From the NCBI RefSeq assembly GCF_905475395.1, contig NC_058342.1, forward strand, positions 34,058,140 through 34,122,139: a DNA stretch of 64,000 nucleotides. Reading direction: 5' to 3'. This DNA is from Chrysoperla carnea (taxonomy: Eukaryota > Arthropoda > Insecta > Neuroptera > Chrysopidae). Shown piece by piece: positions 21,427-60,518 of the stretch (its first letter is position 1; each line of letters starts with the position of its first letter). Position numbers and translations under genes: made by a program. The notes beneath the pieces are model-generated. The model did no database searches and was not told where the DNA came from. It was given only the letters and a program-made list of their open reading frames with translations.

Positions 21427-24400
21427 ATGAATAATAAAACGAAGAGAATGGATTCGAAGGATAATTTGGTTTGTGCATCGGAGATTATTCCTGGTAAGTA
21501 CATAACTTCTTCCATAAAACAATTATCATCAGATATTTTCCAGGAGAAAGTGTATAATTCCTTAAAGATTACATAATTAAAACCTTTTTATACCAAGTTT
21601 AGTCCCAAGTTTGTAACGCTTAAAAATATTGATGCTAAGCAAAAAATTTTGATATAGGTGTTCATAAAATCACCCAATTAGTCCATTTCCGGTTGTCTGT
21701 CTGTCGTCTGTCTGTCTTCTGCCGTCTTTCGTCTGTCTGTCTTCTGTCGTCTGTCCGTCTGTCATCACGATTACTCAAAAACGAAAAGAGATATCAAGCT
21801 GAAATTTTTATAGTGTGCTTAAGACGTAGAAAGTGAGATCGAGTTCGTAAATGAGCAACATAGGTCAATTGGGTCTGTAGTACCCATCTTGTAAACCGTT
21901 ACAGATAGAACAAAAGTTTAAATGTAAAAAATATTCCTTATAAAAAAATAACCAACTTTTGTTTGAAACATTTTTTCGTAAATATCACTGTTTACCCATG
22001 AGGGCGCAAAGTAGGCGTAAATTGTATAGTATGTAACTATGGTAATATCAGTTATTATGTGTAATGTGAAAGAGTCATGAACACTGTCCTATGCATGGTA
22101 TTTCAACAAATAACTCAGTCAGTTGTTTGTTTTCACTTGTTAGTCTTAAGCTTTTTTTCTCAGGGTTGAAAATTTGTTAAAATTTCCCTCACCTCGATTT
22201 CTTCATGTTAGTTTTAGAAAACTATTCTTTCATATTTGTTTTAAAAACAGTAAGAGGTGGATCAAAATCCGGCGTGATTAGAAACGTAGACTAAAAACAA
22301 ATTAGACAAATTATCGACAATTAAATGATAGAAGACCTAAAAAACCTAGTCCTGATCATTTTTCTCTTCTTCCAACTTGAACGCCAGACCAGCAAGAGCA
22401 ATGAAATCTTTGGTATCTTGCTACCCACTTTTTTATTAGCCCATCCTATATTATGGATGGGTAGTTAAGGGTTAATTAAATAGGATTGATTTTAAGTTTT
22501 GTATTTTTTTTTTAGATCGATTATATTTTGTAACGTTAGCAACGAATGAGAAGCCAAAAGCAACGGGCAAAAGTCATTATTTTAATGTGGATAAAGAATT
22601 TGTATATGAGAGTTTTTATGCGGATTTTGGACCTTTAAATTTAGCAATGTTGTTCAATTATTGTCAAAAAGTGAATAAGAAATTACGTTCGGTTAATTTA
22701 ATGAATAAAAAAATTGTACATTATACGACGGTCAATCCACAAAAACGTGTTAATGCAGCCTATTTAATTGCATCGTATGCGGTAAGTTTTGGTTTATCAT
22801 TTATACGCCATTTAAAACGCTCCAAACGTTCCTTGGAGCAATTCCAGTAAGGCACCCCTTTTTGTAGCAAGAATTGTAATATTTCGACAAACATTCGAAT
22901 TCGAATCATTGTAAAATAACTTAAATTATGTTGTTTTGAGGAATAATTCATTTATTTAACATTCAAAACGCTCCATGGGGTCATTCCAATGATACATCCG
23001 TTTTTTAAAAGTAAAGATTTACTTTTTGTATCAAAAATTGTAATATTTCGACAAATATTCGAATTCGAATCATTGAAAAACAACTTAAATTGTCTATCTT
23101 TTAAGAATGCTTCATTTATCCCTTATTCAAAAAGCTCCTTGTAGCAATTCCAATGAGGCACCCGTTGTTTACTTTTTCTACGAAAAATTGTAATATTTCG
23201 ACTTCGAATCGTTGAAAAATAACTGAAATTATGTATTTTTGAAGAATGCTTCCAATATTCGCGTTCAATTTGAATAATATAAATATAGAAAATGAATTTT
23301 GTTTTAGATAATATATTTAAATAAGACGGCTGAGGAGATTTTTAAAATATTAACCGCTGGTGATAATCCGCCATTCATTTTATTTCGTGACGTATCGTTT
23401 GGGATGTGTTTGTATCAAATTTCATTGTTAGATTGTCTTAATGCTGTCTATAAAGCAAAAATGTTTGGTTTCTTTGATTTTAATAATTTCGATGTTATCG
23501 AATATGAACATTATGAGGTAAGTCCATTCTAAAATCCAAATGTTCTTGACAGCTTTTGTCAAATATTTATACAGGGTGTTCTGTAATTGTCTGTAGAACT
23601 TGTCACTTCCTGAATAAGCTCAGAAAGAAAGGAAGAAAATGTTCTTTATTAAATTTGGATCTTAGGCCATATTTACGAGATAATTAACCTAGTATTATAT
23701 TAAAAAATTTTAAAAATATATTCATGAAAATAAAATTCATCCAATAAAACATTACTTAAACAGAGGATGTGTTTTATCATAGTGTGAAGGAGTGGCCTAA
23801 AGGCAAAACTGAAAATTTTGTTTAATTTAGCTTTCGATATTTTGAAATCCAAGGCAGATATCGAAAAATTTCAAAGGTGAAAATAAGGTACAAAAAATTC
23901 CAACCCTATATCAAAAATTGTCTTGGTGCTCGTACTACCTTAAGACTGAGTTATTTGCCTTTTCGCTTTAAACTGTCGTATTTCCTCATATAAATTTGAA
24001 ATTTGATTGTTTAAAAAATCTTTTCTAAATGTTTTTGTACAGCGTGTAGAAAATGGTGATTTAAATTGGATTGTTCCAAATAAATTTATTGCATTTTGTG
24101 GTCCACATGCAAAATCAAAAATTGAGAATGGTTACGCATTTCATGCACCCGAATCATATTTCTCATATTTTCGACGTAGTAATGTTACAACGATTGTACG
24201 TTTGAATAAAAAAATGTACGATTCGAATCGATTTCAAGAAGCTGGTTTCATTCATAAGGATCTGTTTTTTATTGATGGGAGCACACCTAGTGATAATATT
24301 TTGAAACAATTCATAAGTATTTGTGAGGCTACAGATGGTGCAGTCGCTGTTCATTGCAAAGGTAACTTTTAAATTTCTGCATGGTCCAGGATGACGATTG

Positions 24401-38270: not shown

Positions 38271-40840
38271 TCAATGAAAATATTTATTCGCATTTTGATA
38301 TTGTGGGGAACCGGGAACAGTAATTGTCTCGTAAGTTGATGCATCAATACTGTGGACTTTTCCGCACATCACTATCGATTCAGCTTCCGTATAATTATTT
38401 TCTTCTTCTTCGATTTTCCTTTGATTGCTGGTTTCACTTATACTAACTTGGGCATATTCTTGGGATTGCGAAGTATCCAAATCCGTGTAAATATCGGATG
38501 ATATGTTTGATGAAGGCTCTGTATTTACAGTTGCGCGCGCATATGTGGGATATAATTTTCGACTGTTATTAATTGTGGCGGTTGGTTGTGTTGTAGGTAT
38601 TAACGGTAGTTTACGACTTCGACTTTTTGGTAACGATGGTTGACTCGTTAATTTTTCATTTGTGTTTTTACATAAAATTTTCTCGTTAATATGTGTTATC
38701 CATTGTTCCCGTTCTTTGGAATTTCTCGTCATGAATGTATATAATTTTTCATCGTTATCTTTTATTGAAAATGATTTTTCGTTTTTTGTATCAGGAATTA
38801 TTTCATGAGTGAATAAATTACAAATATGTGCTGGTGATTCATCTTTTTCCGATAAGTATAATAGGAGCCAATTTTCTTTGATTATAACGAAATATTTTCG
38901 TGAACAGAACCCAAATAATTTTCGACCACGTCGTAAAATTCCAGCCTAAAATACAAAGAAATCATTGATAATAGAAGTAATTAATGTAATTCAAATTTCT
39001 ACACCAATATCCCAACAAAAAGGATGCATTCATGTATTTGTGTAGGTATACAACTTACCATCGGTGGTGATTTTTCTTTTAAATCTGTGTATGATTTGTT
39101 CGCATAAGGGCATTCGTCATCGTTATTTGTCTGTCTAATTTGTTTGAGGTCGATAACTGCCCCAGGAGTTTCATATTCACTTGGTGCGGTGGTCACTGCT
39201 TCAACATAAGTGTCTGAGTAATCACTACTTAAAGTTTCTATCACTAAAATCAAAACAGGATAATTATTTATTCGTGCGATCCGATAATATTCGATCATTT
39301 TAAAAAGCTCATTTAAAGAGCTTTTTAAAGTATCAGCGGGCTTACAATCCCCTGTTTCCCCTTCCCATTTTGAGATTTAGGGCAGAGTTAAACTAAAGGT
39401 AAGTATCTCAGGATAATTCTTCTTCGAGGATAATTCGAGGAAGATAAGGTTTCCAGAAGTTCTAGGCTCTCTTTTCTAGGCCAGAAGTTCTAGCAATTAT
39501 TGAATAAGAACTGAATGGTTGACTTACAAGGAGGGCCATTTTAAATAGGGATCAAAGTAAATGAAATATCAAATAACAGTTCTAAAATTGACCAGAGTAG
39601 CACTTTTGTAGCAAAAAGTTGTTTGATTTGTACTCCTAAATCTTTCTTTAATAACTTGTTTAGATCTCTATTCGCAATGGGAACTTATTCTAGCGCTGTC
39701 TGGTGGTAGAAAATAGAAGCTGTTTATGACAAGTCGAATTTCAACAGAAATAAGAAATAAATCATATCACATAGTTTAAATAATTTTTTTTATATCACTC
39801 ATTATCAAAATATAAATAAACAATTCAATCATATTCATGCATAAATTTGACTTGTCCTAGACAGCGCTAGAATCATGACGTTCCCAAAACGTACACTTTT
39901 GCTACAGCAGCGCCATCCTTATTTAATACACTAAGATACACTACGATAATTTTCCTTACTTCTACCCTTCATACTTACGTACCATTATTAAAAGATCCAT
40001 TTTTAGCATTCATATCAATGTAGTATTCACTTTTGAAATTCATATTTTTAGTGAATGCATTATTGCTCTTTTTAATTAATAATTCAGCTTGCGCTTGATA
40101 GTGTTTGGGCAGATGTTTGCACACGGTTTTTAAAAATGTACACATTTCTGAAAACAAAGAAATAGATATACTTTAACTTATTATCACTTTGACTTTAACA
40201 AAACCGCAAAATAATAATTACTAGCCCGACCCGTGAGGAATTACCGTTACTCGTGGCTAAAAACAACAAATTTTGTAGAAAAGTGATGAAAAAATCAAAA
40301 GTTCTTATGAAGTTAGTATATTTTTCGTCAAACCTAGACATGACAAGCTTGAAAACGAGGGGTGAGTCATAAGGGTAGGACAGAAAAAAACTTGCTATAA
40401 TAATCATATATGAGATAGTGCAGTTCTTTAATCAGAAAATGCGGTTAACCAAAAACATGTGAAAAATACAATCAATATTGCTACATAATTAACCGGCTAA
40501 ATTTTTGGGCAGTCGAACCTCAACAATTCGTTGTTATAAACAATAAAAGCGATTTTGTATCCAAAAAAAAAATTAGTTTGGAGATTAGGATCAAAGAATT
40601 ATTTGTTAACTAAAAATTAAAAATATTATTTTTTGTCCAAAAATTTTTTAAACATTTTTATCCGTACGACAAGTCTCACGATTGTTTCCACAAGATCCAA
40701 ATTATTGTTTGTTATATTATTGCGAAAGAACCGCACTAATTAATTGATATTAATATAAAATTAATAATTAATAACTTACCTTGTAATAAAGATTTTGTAA
40801 TATCAAAAGAATTTAATTCGTCCATGTTAAACGTCTCCAT
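38271..40840 (-). CDS. PH-domain adaptor protein, SKAP-like, 4 exons
   Basis: Minus-strand exons 40840-40780, 40147-39983, 39243-39059 and 38945-38271 join in phase to 361 residues. Residues about 1-75 are helix-prone (MDELNSFDITKSLLQ, then EMCTFLKTVCKHLPKHYQ), followed by an acidic Tyr-rich linker (SSDYSDTY, SEYETPGAV, KSYTDLKEK). A PH domain starts at exon 4 (about 138-230): AGILRRGRKLFGFCSRKYFVI, a LLLYLSEKDESPAH strand, and the closing Trp helix EREQWITHINEKI. The tail has Pro-rich SRKLPLIPTTQP and Tyr motifs (IYTDLD, YAQV, YETI) that could be Src-family phosphorylation and SH2-docking sites. Helical N-terminus, Tyr linker and PH domain in this order resemble SKAP1/SKAP2, but no C-terminal SH3 domain is present. 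Exon 2 must end at GTACGT rather than the overlapping GTAAGT to keep the frame. It is convergent with NR2C2AP. PH domain is well supported; the SKAP link is tentative. Confidence 0.72.
39536..39925. mobile_element. Foldback element in intron 2 of the PH-domain gene
   Basis: CTAGCGCTGTCTGGTGGTAG and ATGACAAGTCGAATTT are mirrored by AAATTTGACTTGTCCTAGAC and AGCGCTAGAATCATGACG; the outer words GTAGCACTTTTGTAGCA and CACTTTTGCTACAGCAG also pair. Diverged arms of about 190 bp. Confidence 0.65.
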
Positions 40841-42573: not shown

Positions 42574-48626
<6,053 letters not shown>

Positions 48627-49003: not shown

Positions 49004-49834
49004 TTAATTGCTTAAGCCAAATAAATGATTACGATACTTGGAATCATCAATTTTATTTCCAAAAAAAATCTCTTTTATTTTAAAGAAAGCCATACCAGTA
49101 AGAAGTGAATCGGATCCTGCTTGATGTTGTAATCCAAGACGAGATAAATTTAATTGAACAGCCACTTCTTGTAAACCACCTCCTAAATTCTTACACGTTT
49201 TCAGCATATATTTAACATCGTAAATATTCGGAAAGTACAATCCTAATAATTCAAAAAATTCACTTTCATCCAGCGGTAAATATTGATCCGTTAACAATTT
49301 AAGAAGATAAGCAAAATCATAACCAGAATGAAATGACAAAAATTTAATTTCATCCATGAGCACAACACCAGACGACATTAATAATTCTGCAAAATGTAGG
49401 GGATCGATACCTTCTCGTTCATGTTTGTCAAATTGTATGCCACAATTTTTTAATAATTCAATACTGTCGAACGCATACATATCTTCAACTAAATCAAATT
49501 TGAAATTGAATTGCCAGGTCGAATAAGTTGTTTCAGGTGTTTTACCATTTTCATCCAGAAACGTAAGACCTAATTGTATTATTCTTAACATATCAACATT
49601 GCACCGAACCACCTGATATTGATAGTCTTGTCGAAATTCACAAATCGGTCGAGCAACGATTCCAGGGAATTCTGTATCCATTGCAACATATTGATATTTT
49701 TGGACAACTTTTCTTATCGTTCGAAATTCTTCTTCGATATTGTAACACCAAACGTCTCTGATACCATAATCTTCATTAGTGACAGTGGGTATTTGACTCT
49801 CATTACTCGTGCACGCTGTCGTATCAAATTCCAT
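49004..49834 (-). CDS. Pop2: CAF1/Pop2 (CNOT7-type) deadenylase, intronless
   Basis: A single 276-residue ORF with an ATG start encodes a DEDD exonuclease of the CCR4-NOT complex, which shortens mRNA poly(A) tails. The catalytic set is complete: Asp53 and Glu55 in MDTEFPG, Asp173 in SFHSGYDF, Asp242 in AGSDSLLTG, and His237 just before. Blocks such as QLGLTF, STWQFNFKF, DVKYMLKTCKNL and GGLQEVA are as in CNOT7. A leader of about 13 extra residues precedes the domain, which runs to HLFGLSN with no long tail. Compared with remembered CNOT7, the segment after PICEFR is two residues shorter and many flanking residues differ. Pop2 is normally very conserved, so this may be a paralogue or retrocopy rather than the main gene. 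A 10-base A-run on the coding strand shortly after the stop could be a remnant of a poly(A) tail. Function appears intact. Confidence 0.9.
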   Translation of the reverse strand: MEFDTTACTSNESQIPTVTNEDYGIRDVWCYNIEEEFRTIRKVVQKYQYVAMDTEFPGIVARPICEFRQDYQYQVVRCNVDMLRIIQLGLTFLDENGKTPETTYSTWQFNFKFDLVEDMYAFDSIELLKNCGIQFDKHEREGIDPLHFAELLMSSGVVLMDEIKFLSFHSGYDFAYLLKLLTDQYLPLDESEFFELLGLYFPNIYDVKYMLKTCKNLGGGLQEVAVQLNLSRLGLQHQAGSDSLLTGMAFFKIKEIFFGNKIDDSKYRNHLFGLSN

Positions 49835-52800
49835 TTGGGAATCGTTTAATTCTATTTGATGTCGAAAAATTGTTACAAATATCTCAAAATCAATAAATCA
49901 ATAAACTATCACTTATTTTAAATTAATGAAATACAATTAATGATCTATTTTTAATGAATTAATGACAAGAATGAATCACTACGTTTAATCAATTTGGAAT
50001 GAATTGTGAATGACGTTTATTTAAACAAAAGAAAATCATATTAGTCCGATAACTTTTTTGTATTTTACTTTTTAACTTAGGATTTGATATCTCTCCAGAC
50101 ATGATCAAGAGACTCTCGAAATTATGTAGCCTTTTTCGATTCCCGATATCAACATAAATTCTCCAGAAGTCAGTAAAGTCACTGCCGGGCAAGATCTGAC
50201 CTGGTGGTAACCCTACATAATTCACTTAAATTCGACAATTCATTTTAAAATAAATATTTAATTATAGAAAAACTGAGTACATAAAACATTAAAAATTACG
50301 AACAGCATTTTAATTCGATCTCATTTGATTGCTTAAGAGCGTCCCAAATCGACACTTTGATATTCCAGTTTACCTTTTGACTTGTAGGTTATCATTTTTC
50401 TTTCGAAAAAGGTAATTTTTATTAAAGGAGTAACGAAACTAGCTCCTACTGATATTAATTCCTGGAATATAACGATACAAGAATAAAATACAAGCAAATT
50501 ACAAATATAAAAATTTTTATTTAACATTTATAGCCATTTGGATAACAAATTTTTGATTTTGGAAATAATTGATGAATGAATATATAATTAATTATATAAT
50601 ACAATACATGAATTGAATATCAATATATTATGTAATATTTATATTACGATATGATTTCTTAAATGACAAATCTGCCCTGATCTGATCACATAAAAACCAG
50701 GGTGCCCTAACTCCAACCATTTTTGACAAAGAGATTGTATAATAGAGTGCGGATACGATGAAATTAGTGTTCCAATATTAGAAAGAGATACAAGGAAAGT
50801 TTTGGTTTAGTTATCTCTCTCATATTTCACTAATCACCAACAGTGGAACAAAGATAGCTCTACTTTTAGAACAGAGGTTGTCTCTTTATAAAGTTGGCAC
50901 AACTTTTCAACACAGAAAGTTTATGGAGCTGTCTAGTATTACTATGTCTATGGTTTTCGAATTATTATAAAAAATATGCCTTTTTAGTAGCCTTAATTCC
51001 AATTTGACGTCCCACATGAATTGTTTCTTAAAAAAAAAAAAATACATAATTTAAAAATATATTACATTAACTTTAACAAAAGTTTTGGACATTAAAACAA
51101 CTTGAATTCGAAATTTTGTTTTCTTTGGAGATAGGGCTTTTTAAGTGATGAGGGCAGAAATCCTGTTCGTGTTTATGTAGGTAAATGTATACATTATACA
51201 AGTATTAACGCCTTATTAAATAACGCCCCCTAAATAATATAGTAAGGCCCTCCAAAGTATACTACAGTTATGTTTTTAAACATCAATTCAATTAATTAAA
51301 TAAACTATTTAATTATTGGTAAAATATTCGCGAAACATAATTTTTTTACTATTTACAAATTCTTTTTACAAATATCGCGCGCATGCGTTGCGAATGCGTT
51401 CATGCCGTTCATCTTCATACATTCAACCTTACAAACATTGGTGAGCGTTCACAACATTATTTTCAATTTGCACATAAACATTTTTTTTTAAGTTTTTAAT
51501 TTTTTTTAATAATAATTTTGTTCATTTAATTTTTTGAGGTAATTTTCTAAAAGAGAAGCTTCAAAATAAGACCTAGAATTTTTTTAATCAATATAGACGT
51601 TTTTGAACACACCTCTTATGAAATTCATGACGCCGCGTTTTTGGAATTTTATTTTGTTTTATAGCCCCAAAAACGAAAATTATGAGATTTTGAGAAGATT
51701 TTATTTAAATATATATGAGTTAGTGTCATGGAAGTGCCTTTTAGGAGTGCTAACTTCCCAAACCTCTTCCCTTTTTAATTTTTATTATATCGGAAATCTC
51801 AAAACATGACATTGTGAGGTTAGAAGATTAAAAATTTCTGTGTGAATTATAAGTGCCTTTTGGCAGTGTCAGCCCCACCTCGTTCTTTTACGTAGCTCAT
51901 TGCTTCCAACCTTTTTTTGACGTTTCACACTTTATTACCTTTATAATTTTTTCACGGCAAACTTTATTAGCTTGTTTGTCCAATGATAAAAAAAAATTCG
52001 ATATCCTATTTTGAGCTAGAACTCGATTTCTAGACAATTACCGATTTTTTAGTTTATTTTTCTTTTTTTGTTAAATTTTCTAAAAAAAGAAAATGGAAGT
52101 AAATAAAAAGGTAAGGTTAAGATTAAAATAAATTAGAAAATATTAAAAATACAAATTAAAATTTGTTAAAAGCGTATAACTTAATACATCTGATCAGTAC
52201 TTTTTTACTCTCCTTAGGTTAATTAAAATTATTTTTAAATAAATTATTTTTATACTTAATCATCACTCATTATTCACGAATGGAAATGAAAATTGTAAAC
52301 TGCATGCAAAAAAAATTTAACAGGTACGAATTCTCTGTATAATTTTGTTTACAGGCTTTTTTTATAATTACCCACAAGAAATAAATTTAATAATTGTCAA
52401 TTTTCCAGATCGAATATCGGAAATCATTAGATTCAGATCTTAATCGAAATCGGAAATTTTTATTCAATTTTTTGTAATTTTCAATGCTACGAAGATAGGT
52501 TGTAGTAAATATTATTTTCTACATTGGATTAAAGCACCCTAACCCGACTTTTTGGGTGCTATCACCATTGACATTACATTAAATAGACTGAGTGTCAAAC
52601 GATTTTAAGCGTGCCAACATCTGACGTAATTGCTTGGGTCAAATAAGTGAAAAAGTTCAGTGAAATCACGATGTTTTATGTAAAACATTTTGTGATTTAA
52701 AAATTTGACAGATGTTGGTACGATAGCGATGCTTAGTCTATGTATAACTATAAAGTCAATGGATATCTGTCAAATTTAATAACAGTAACCTATGATTTTA

Positions 52801-57446: not shown

Positions 57447-60400
57447 TTAATCAACACACACAACACCGGGTACTTCATCAGAGAATTGTTGTATTGTTCC
57501 AAACAATCGTCTTTTTGGATCTGTAAATGCTGCTCCAAAACCATGATCGGTTTTCCCATAAAGCTCTTCAAGTGGATCTTGATTCTCTGATTCGATATCA
57601 GATGGAACTATAACAATTGTAGGTTCTTCGACGAATTCGATCTCATCATCACTTGAATCACTTGTATTTTCGACCATTGTGACTTGATATTCTTGTTCTT
57701 CAAATTGTTCATCTTCTGAATCGGATATTTCGATAATATCATCACGAACAATCAAAGGACTTGGAGGGGGTATTAAATTAGTTTCGTTTACAAGTTCATC
57801 TAACGGATAATTACCTTTTAATTTTGTATTGATGTTCGTTATATCCAAATCGGTTAACTGTTTCACTTCGACACAAATTCGCGAACAATACATCCGATAA
57901 ATAATTTGCGAACGTTCACTTAAACCATGTAATCTAGATCGACGTCCTCGAAAATTATATGGACGCGTACTTTGTACCTTTTTATGAGCCCCTTTCGGCT
58001 GTCGATACGTTACGGGATAGGTAGTTGGACGACGTTGTGGATTTTGGCTTGGATATAATTTTTTAACGGGTGATGTTCGCGTAAAACGTTCAATACGACC
58101 GCACCGTTCGTGTATGTTATCAGACGTTAGTTCTTTTCGAGTACGTTTTAACAAGATTTGTCCAATATTCGAGGAGAATGGTATGTTCGGACATTTTGTT
58201 AACGATAACAATTGTCGTCGATTATTACACGGTGGTGGGGATATTGATTTTTTACTTCTGTCTCTTTCTCGATCTTCATTAAATCGCGGTAATTTTTCAT
58301 GCGAACATAAATTAAATGTTTGTAAAAATGTTTCTTGAAACGTTTCAGTGACCTGATGCTGGTGTGATGAGATCTCTGTTCCTGGTCCTGGTGATTGTCC
58401 TGATGTTCTTGATGTTCTGGTGATTGAAGAAGATGGTGACGGTGGAGGTGAAACTGATATAGTATCATGTGTGTCAGATACTATGTCGTAATTACTATCG
58501 TTATTGCCATGATCGTACAGTGGATCGTCTAAATCGATTAAAATCACAGATGAACACGTCCTTTCATGGCCCTAAATTTTAGAAAACATTCCAATTAAAA
58601 TCAATGAAAATTTAGGATAGTCAAATGGACAGGAGCAGTGTAACTGTACAAAATGTAACAAAAGAGGGATAATATACCGCTCATTTTTTTACTGATAACT
58701 GGCTCTGTATTAAGGAGGGAATCTTTAGCAAAACATAATCTATATGGGCGTCGCCAAGATTGCATTTTTCAAGAATTCTTCATCTGCGTCTACGCTAGGG
58801 TGGGTCAAAACAATCGACTTTTTTTTCTTCTGTTTCCGAAGAATTGGTTTAATAGATTGCTGTAAGCGTTCCACGTCAAAACTTGGAAAAGGTCGACGAT
58901 GGGAAACGCAAAACTAAGCGGCTTTACATGCTCATTGTTCACAAGAAAAACCTAGTGAGCCCTGAATTTATCGACCAGGAGATTAGAAAATTTAGTAATC
59001 CAGACGCCTCAAGTTTTTATTCAGTGACTTAACAAAGAAATATTTTTCTATGTATTTTCGTTCCCGACAGGGAGGGGCAATGGCACCCCTTGAACCATCG
59101 TCCGGTTGCCCATGATAATCTAAGACTTTCTTGGTACAGCGATTTGTCTAAGGACTCTTATGCCGAGATAAGACGACAATAAGAAATTAAATTTTTCATC
59201 ATATCATTTTCTTTTCTCTCATCTCATAAAATTTCAGACGGTTTCTCTCAATGGAACCTTAAATCAATAAGATGCTTAGAAAATTCATTATTAAATAATC
59301 AAGGGGAAAACATTACCTCAGATTATATGACAACGTATTTCTGAAGAGGTGAAAGATTTTTGGGAGGGGGTTGTAGGAATCAAAGTGATAAGTGGACGAA
59401 ATAAGTTAGGATTTAAAACGATTTAAAGATATCTCAATATCTTCGCTCATTGCATCCCATAACCGTTCTTTTTCCCAACCTGCTTAAATTGAGTTAGCAC
59501 AAGTTAGCCTTTTTTAAACAGCTCGCTTAAAAGTGTGCTATTTATTCCAAAAAAATCTTCTTTTTACAATAATAATAAATAAGGAGACCGTAAATGGACT
59601 CCTAGCTCCTTAACCAAAAGGTATTCTGCCTCCCCCCCCCACAGCGCCGGATTAATTAGGGACATGTTATTTAAAATAAATTTTTTTTCTGTTCTTCTCC
59701 CCTAAATAGGATTCCATTCACGTCAAGCCTCTGTCCCCACCAAGTCTTAATCCAACCTGTCACCCGAAGGCGAAGCTTCTCCGAATAAGAATAGGATTTT
59801 GTCTAGGCGAGATGTCACGCAGAAAGACCTCAACTTCTCTTAAACATTTTTTAAGGGCTGAAATGCCGCCAGGCCAATATTTAGGCATGAATAGGCATGG
59901 AAATTTTTGTTACACATTATGTGGATAAATTAGGGAGGTGTATTTTGGAAATTTTACGGTTGATGAACTCACCTTTAATGCTTTAAAGGTGGTAAAAGCT
60001 TCACAGCAATTTTGACAAATAAATGTGTCGACCTCTGGTTCTAGAATAATTGTTTCGACACGTCTATGGAATTTATTACGTAATTGATATTTTCTACGAT
60101 CGTACGTTAATAATTCGTTACGAACGGTTACTAATAATTTGGATGTTGACTTTTCAAAAAATGATGTTGTACCATTCCAATTATCCAAAATACGAAAATT
60201 ATCCTTGGATATTTCAGCTAATTGTACACTAAATCCAATCATGTCTTCCATACGATGATAACGGTAACATTTTGTAATTAGATTTAACAATAGCTCTTTC
60301 CAATCAGCACAACGGAAATTTTTAGCACGTTTAAATGGATTCGTAAATGGTACTTCTCTTGGCCACCATAATGGTACTTTTATTTCTTTGGCTGTATCGT

Positions 60401-60518
60401 GACCCAACGAACATCGGACCATAAACGTAATAAATTTTTCTAATTTTTCAATCGACATACGTTCCAATGTCGTTGGATAACCATCCATAAAAAGTAGTGG
60501 CAAATTTGAGCTCATCAT
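57447..60518 (-). CDS. NRF1/Erect-wing-like protein with C2HC zinc finger and SIM-like motifs
   Basis: Two minus-strand exons, 60518-59973 and 58571-57447, join in phase 0 to 556 residues. Residues about 6-92 resemble the conserved block of NRF1/P3A2/Ewg transcription factors: LPLLFMDGYPTTLERM, then VPLWWPREVPFTNP and a KCYRYHRMEDMIGFS helix. A second conserved-looking part, DNWNGTTSFF and LLVTVRNELLTYDRR, follows. The splice junction then reconstitutes a zinc finger with Cys168, Cys171, His184 and Cys188 (CX2C...HX3C), which supports the intron. The long second exon is low-complexity, with Ser/Pro and Arg/Lys-rich parts and an acidic C-terminus. Three hydrophobic-acidic stretches look like SUMO-interaction motifs: VILIDLDD (191-198), IIEISDSEDE (461-470) and TIVIVPSD (500-507). 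The start is the first in-frame ATG; the frame stays open about 25 codons upstream, so an acceptor at ATGAG and earlier exons encoding the rest of an NRF1-type domain are possible. Probably nuclear. Family link is from memory of motifs. Confidence 0.7.
59570..59850 (+). repeat. Dispersed repeat family R-B, copy 3, in the NRF1-like gene intron
   Basis: AACCTGTCACCCGAAGGCGA, then GGATTTTGTCTAGG and CACGCAGAAAG follow the order of 13,140-13,440, with an insertion of about 80 bp after a C-run at 59,631. Confidence 0.7.

Follow-up and report, generated by a model that had tools for sequence, protein, structure and literature searches.

A two-exon Chrysoperla carnea gene with an NRF1-like half-domain and a C2HC finger as a probable Su(var)2-1/Ova homologue accompanied by a diverged intronless copy

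What kind of protein joins a domain resembling that of NRF1 and Erect wing (Ewg) to a zinc finger whose two halves are encoded in different exons? The question is raised by a minus-strand locus in a 64-kb window of the Chrysoperla carnea genome (the window being the whole stretch of DNA analysed here, 64,000 nucleotides), for which we predict a two-exon gene encoding a protein of 556 amino acids (Table 1). Both exons appear to be coding. Their open runs, of 182 codons in exon 1 and 374 codons in exon 2, compare with longest runs of 107 and 214 codons, respectively, in 1000 shuffles of each, and the third codon positions are the GC-poorest in both (0.253 in exon 1 and 0.233 in exon 2). The initial annotation had also proposed looking for exons further upstream; among the seven matches returned by an NRF1-family profile search of the genome (559 Mb in 337 contigs), none lies upstream of the gene within the 64-kb window.

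Table 1. Features of the window gene and of its relatives in the same genome, with the residues found at the positions of the three base-reading residues of human NRF1. Positions lacking a contig or locus prefix are those of the window.
Feature	Position	Strand	Residues at NRF1 206/242/244	Description
Window gene	60518..57447 (stop included)	-	E,N,F	556 aa, two exons
In-frame stop TAA	60603..60605	-		upstream of the first ATG (60518)
Exon 1	59973..60518	-		182 aa: NRF1/Ewg DNA-binding half-domain (residues 4-94), linker, first half of the finger (CQNC, 168-171)
Intron	58572..59972	-		1401 bases, phase 0, AAG|GTGAGT ... TTTAG|GGC
Exon 2	57450..58571	-		374 aa: remainder of the finger (H184, C188), a region in common with the paralogue (exon 2 residues 101-224), and an acidic tail
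Stop codon TAA	57447..57449	-		closes the exon 2 frame
Paralogue of the window gene	C1:116345324-116347123; L009 121..1938	-	E,H,I	intronless, 600 aa
ewg	C6:33.597 Mb		R,N,R	intron-bearing
ewg-like frame	C5:66602008; L001 1219..2676	+	R,S,R	intronless, full-length, 485 aa
NRF1-like frame	C1:75981507; L002 1282..2172	-	R,D,R	intronless, 296 aa

There is good evidence from sequence comparison for placing exons 1 and 2 in one gene, because an intronless paralogue elsewhere in the genome matches both of them, in order, within a single frame of 600 amino acids. This paralogue was missed by the NRF1-family search and was found with the window gene as query (E=2.7e-21 for exon 1 and E=4.8e-7 for exon 2). 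When the paralogue was used as the query in turn, the window gene ranked first after the paralogue itself, exon 1 and then exon 2 being matched along the query (5.0e-20 and 2.4e-7). Exon 2 aligned to the corresponding part of the paralogue with a score of 52.8 bits, against a maximum of 25.4 bits over 200 shuffles.

The junction of the two exons falls within the finger. In particular, the sequence CQNCCEAFTTFKALKGHERTC, at residues 168-188, has the form CX2CX12HX3C and includes the F and L that typify classical fingers; the phase-0 intron cuts it after residue 182, so that the C2HC finger is completed across the intron as originally proposed. None of 20000 shuffles contained the strict pattern CX2CX3FX5LX2HX3[CH], and 42 of 20000 contained a looser form of it. 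Pfam finger models remained below their cut-offs on the window protein (E=0.08 and 3.1), as might be expected if the two exons were unrelated, or the gene were decaying, and the finger were an accident of joining neighbouring open frames. Such an accident is nevertheless exceedingly improbable in light of the paralogue, which carries both parts in one frame and in the same order, the score of exon 2 against it, the open run of each exon, which beats 1000 of 1000 shuffles and goes with GC-poorest third positions, and the failure of shuffling to reproduce the strict finger pattern.

The N-terminal likeness to NRF1 and Ewg that had been noticed by eye was borne out by profile searches. The Pfam family PF10491 matched the window gene with E=7.5e-11 and 42.6 bits (cut-off 23.5), over profile positions 113-209 of 213, and chains of human NRF1 matched it as well (8k3d, E=1.7e-11; 8k4l, E=1.3e-10). 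In the crystal structure of human NRF1 reported in PMC10810270, the dimerisation domain spans residues 54-172 and the DNA-binding domain residues 201-284. Set against these domain limits, the restriction of the PF10491 alignment to profile positions 113-209 indicates that the window protein has the DNA-binding half only; profile searches of the protein and of the genome found the dimerisation half (profile positions 1-112) absent from the window gene. The elements LP.L..DG, WWP and W....L....CY.YH..ED are common to NRF1/Erect wing and to this half of the window protein. Unlike NRF1 and Ewg, however, the window protein has no dimerisation half, and its half-domain is followed by the C2HC finger and an acidic tail.

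The residues with which NRF1 reads bases are given in PMC10810270 as R206, N242 and R244. When the window protein is aligned with human NRF1, two of these three are replaced and N242 is kept, in an alignment that is gapped near the base-reading sites, where adjacent K and R could stand in for R244. Linker2 is shortened, and at 10 further backbone-contact positions the window protein is identical to NRF1 at one (W258). The exchange of R206 for E and of R244 for F makes GCGC reading unlikely, and we therefore predict that specific reading of GCGC has been lost. A structure prediction of exon 1 alone, made without an alignment, was of low confidence (mean pLDDT 41.4). The suggestion that the protein makes a different DNA contact stands insofar as base-reading residues have been replaced, and no further.

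These observations bear on whether the window gene might be a true paralogue of the NRF1/Ewg-type transcription factors, still binding GC-rich sites and perhaps using the finger as a new contact. The significant match to the NRF1 DNA-binding domain and the retained N242 would accord with such a factor, as would the finding in PMC10810270 that the DNA-binding domain of NRF1 by itself binds the half-site TGCGC. With the dimerisation half missing, both arginines replaced, backbone-contact identity at 1 of 10 positions, and Ewg itself as well as two intronless ewg-like copies sitting elsewhere in the genome, we nevertheless regard it as very unlikely. (Note that the window gene is not ewg itself, which was ruled out by the intron-bearing ewg on C6 and by a domain tree that pairs the window gene with its own paralogue.)

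A protein of matching layout has been described in Drosophila, where Su(var)2-1 (PMC7021753) and Ovaries absent (ovaries absent, Ova; PMC6335052) are one and the same gene, CG5694. According to PMC6335052 the fly protein has 623 amino acids and an NRF-1-like half domain at residues 15-105; PMC7021753 places its C2HC motif at 188-208 in a figure legend and at 189-210 in the text, and states that Su(var)2-1 is conserved in insects and crustaceans. In the shorter window protein (556 amino acids) the N-terminal half-domain occupies residues 4-94, and the C2HC motif, of 21 residues as in the legend for the fly protein, follows at similar spacing; compared with the fly protein, the domain begins 11 residues and the finger 20 residues closer to the N-terminus. 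Because the half-domain and the length and spacing of the finger correspond to the published fly protein, we take the window gene to be insect Su(var)2-1/Ova (CG5694-type), by analogy with the fly a chromatin adaptor, with a probability of about 0.88 on a comparison with the fly protein by published layout. The combination of a half NRF1 domain with a C2HC finger is the already published signature of Su(var)2-1/Ova (PMC7021753, PMC6335052) and not a new one, contrary to what the initial annotation had implied. What survives of its reading as an insect NRF1 paralogue is that the gene encodes an NRF1-domain protein distinct from NRF1 and Ewg; the idea of an uncharted paralogue gives way to the Su(var)2-1/Ova layout. 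We conclude that the window gene belongs to a known family, in which its presence is no surprise, and that it is accompanied by a diverged intronless copy in the same genome. An odd-looking gene thereby gains a likely identity with known biology, that of heterochromatin and transposon silencing.

In the fly the protein is an adaptor between HP1a and dLsd1 (PMC7021753, PMC6335052). The fragment comprising residues 388-486 suffices to bind the chromo shadow domain of HP1a, and dLsd1 is bound by the fragments 1-388 and 250-486 (PMC6335052). Residues 250-486, which include neither the NRF1 domain nor the finger, rescue the ovary and transposon-silencing defects (PMC6335052), as fits an adaptor role. 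In addition, RPD3 co-precipitates with fly Su(var)2-1, and its association with chromosomes requires Su(var)2-1 (PMC7021753). It is from these fly papers that we infer the partners and function of the window protein. In particular, the part after the finger may bring the H3K4 demethylase LSD1 to HP1-marked chromatin, the protein may also recruit the deacetylase RPD3 there, and recruitment of the two would lead to the silencing of transposons and heterochromatin. The NRF1 half-domain keeps residues typical of the family (WWP, W....L, CY.YH..ED), and yet, because there is no dimerisation half and two of three base-reading residues are lost, it has probably ceased to read GCGCATGCGC and would instead play an accessory part in contacting chromatin or other proteins. 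The replacement of most base-reading residues in this relative suggests why the NRF1-like domain of the fly protein is dispensable for ovary rescue. A search of the 556-amino-acid window protein for the canonical PxVxL HP1 motif found none. Genome profile searches gave four matches to the chromo shadow domain and five to the SWIRM domain; their presence, which is expected of any insect, is necessary but uninformative and adds little.

Another possibility is that the window gene encodes an insect factor acting through SUMO, the hydrophobic-acidic motifs of its tail recruiting SUMOylated partners. The initial annotation had counted three hydrophobic cores followed by acidic residues in the tail. 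Two clusters, at residues 461 and 501, qualify by our criterion, and the first core, VILIDLDD in the opening part of exon 2, does not. At least two clusters were reached by a fraction of 0.0665 of 2000 shuffles, which is near chance. The sequence IIEISDSEDE at 461 does resemble a SUMO-interaction motif, and the tail of the paralogue, with CIDLTDDES and VIVIEE, has three clusters, a number reached by only 0.002 of 2000 shuffles. The criterion discriminates poorly, however, because the ewg-like copy on C5 also yields two (a fraction of 0.02 of shuffles). Sites of the psi-K-x-E type numbered zero in the window protein and three in the paralogue, and no paper treating CG5694 together with SUMO was found in the open-access library searched. 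The proposal of SUMO-dependent partners accordingly finds little footing in the window gene itself, and we consider a factor of this kind unlikely.

A six-sequence domain tree unites the window gene and the 600-amino-acid paralogue with support of 0.985 (FastTree) and 99 (IQ-TREE). They share the N-terminal NRF1-like half, an IPFSS block (18 of 49 residues identical) and acidic-hydrophobic motifs; the paralogue differs in its basic C-terminus and in carrying E, H and I at the three base-reading positions. The C2HC pattern is absent from the paralogue, in which only CYSC is left, and PF10491 gave no match to it at E 0.1 or better. The 485-residue C5 and 296-residue C1 frames were weighed as possible nearer relatives, but each retains R206 and R244 and is placed outside the pair formed by the window gene and the paralogue; the branch joining the 296-residue frame to that pair is poorly supported (68 and 0.773). 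Both frames are possible retrocopies. Three further matches were discarded: C2:71383390 (E=0.004, two internal stops), which was not returned by the paralogue search and whose longest frame, among those listed of at least 50 amino acids, has 94; C3:64792272 (E=0.71), dropped as chance; and, from the paralogue search, C4:6918108 (E=0.81), also dropped as chance.

Introns near profile positions 149 and 188 split the half-domain of ewg in this genome, whereas the window gene has the same half in one exon. (One TAG falls within an ewg exon match and was taken for an intron end because an open frame starts right after it.) The intron-free half-domain would be accounted for either by an origin in an ewg copy without introns or by the loss of the two introns. 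As both ewg introns of that half are missing, the half-domain of the family may perhaps descend from a retroposed ewg. We suggest, tentatively, that this insect has two Su(var)2-1-type adaptors, one intron-bearing and with the finger, the other a fast-changing intronless copy from which the finger and each of the three base-reading residues have been lost, and in which the tail is basic and the SUMO-interaction-like motifs are clearer. The two could act as a pair of heterochromatin adaptors whose roles are divided or antagonistic, with germline specificity as one example. The open-access library searched yielded no report of a duplicated Su(var)2-1. The diverged intronless copy is the only unusual element here, and it allows a test of such a division of labour.

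Several other coding features are found in the window. At 49004..49897 on the minus strand lies a single-frame CAF1-family ribonuclease of 297 amino acids (PF04857, E=1.4e-23); a genome search for CAF1 gave 10 matches, two of them within this frame. On the plus strand, phosphatase exons at 22476..24372, presumably CDC14-like, match PF14671 (E=1.2e-35), with a weaker match to a phosphatase model in the next frame, and a protein kinase at 44296..46864, which we take to be Greatwall-like, is present in two parts about 2 kb apart (PF00069 positions 1-76 and 154-210). A PH-domain exon is located at 38271..38945 on the minus strand (PF00169, E=2.9e-7). Finally, across the whole genome the repeat TTAGG was matched 133 times in forward and 190 times in reverse orientation, overlapping matches included; among the matches listed, all are on C1, and the arrays are interstitial.
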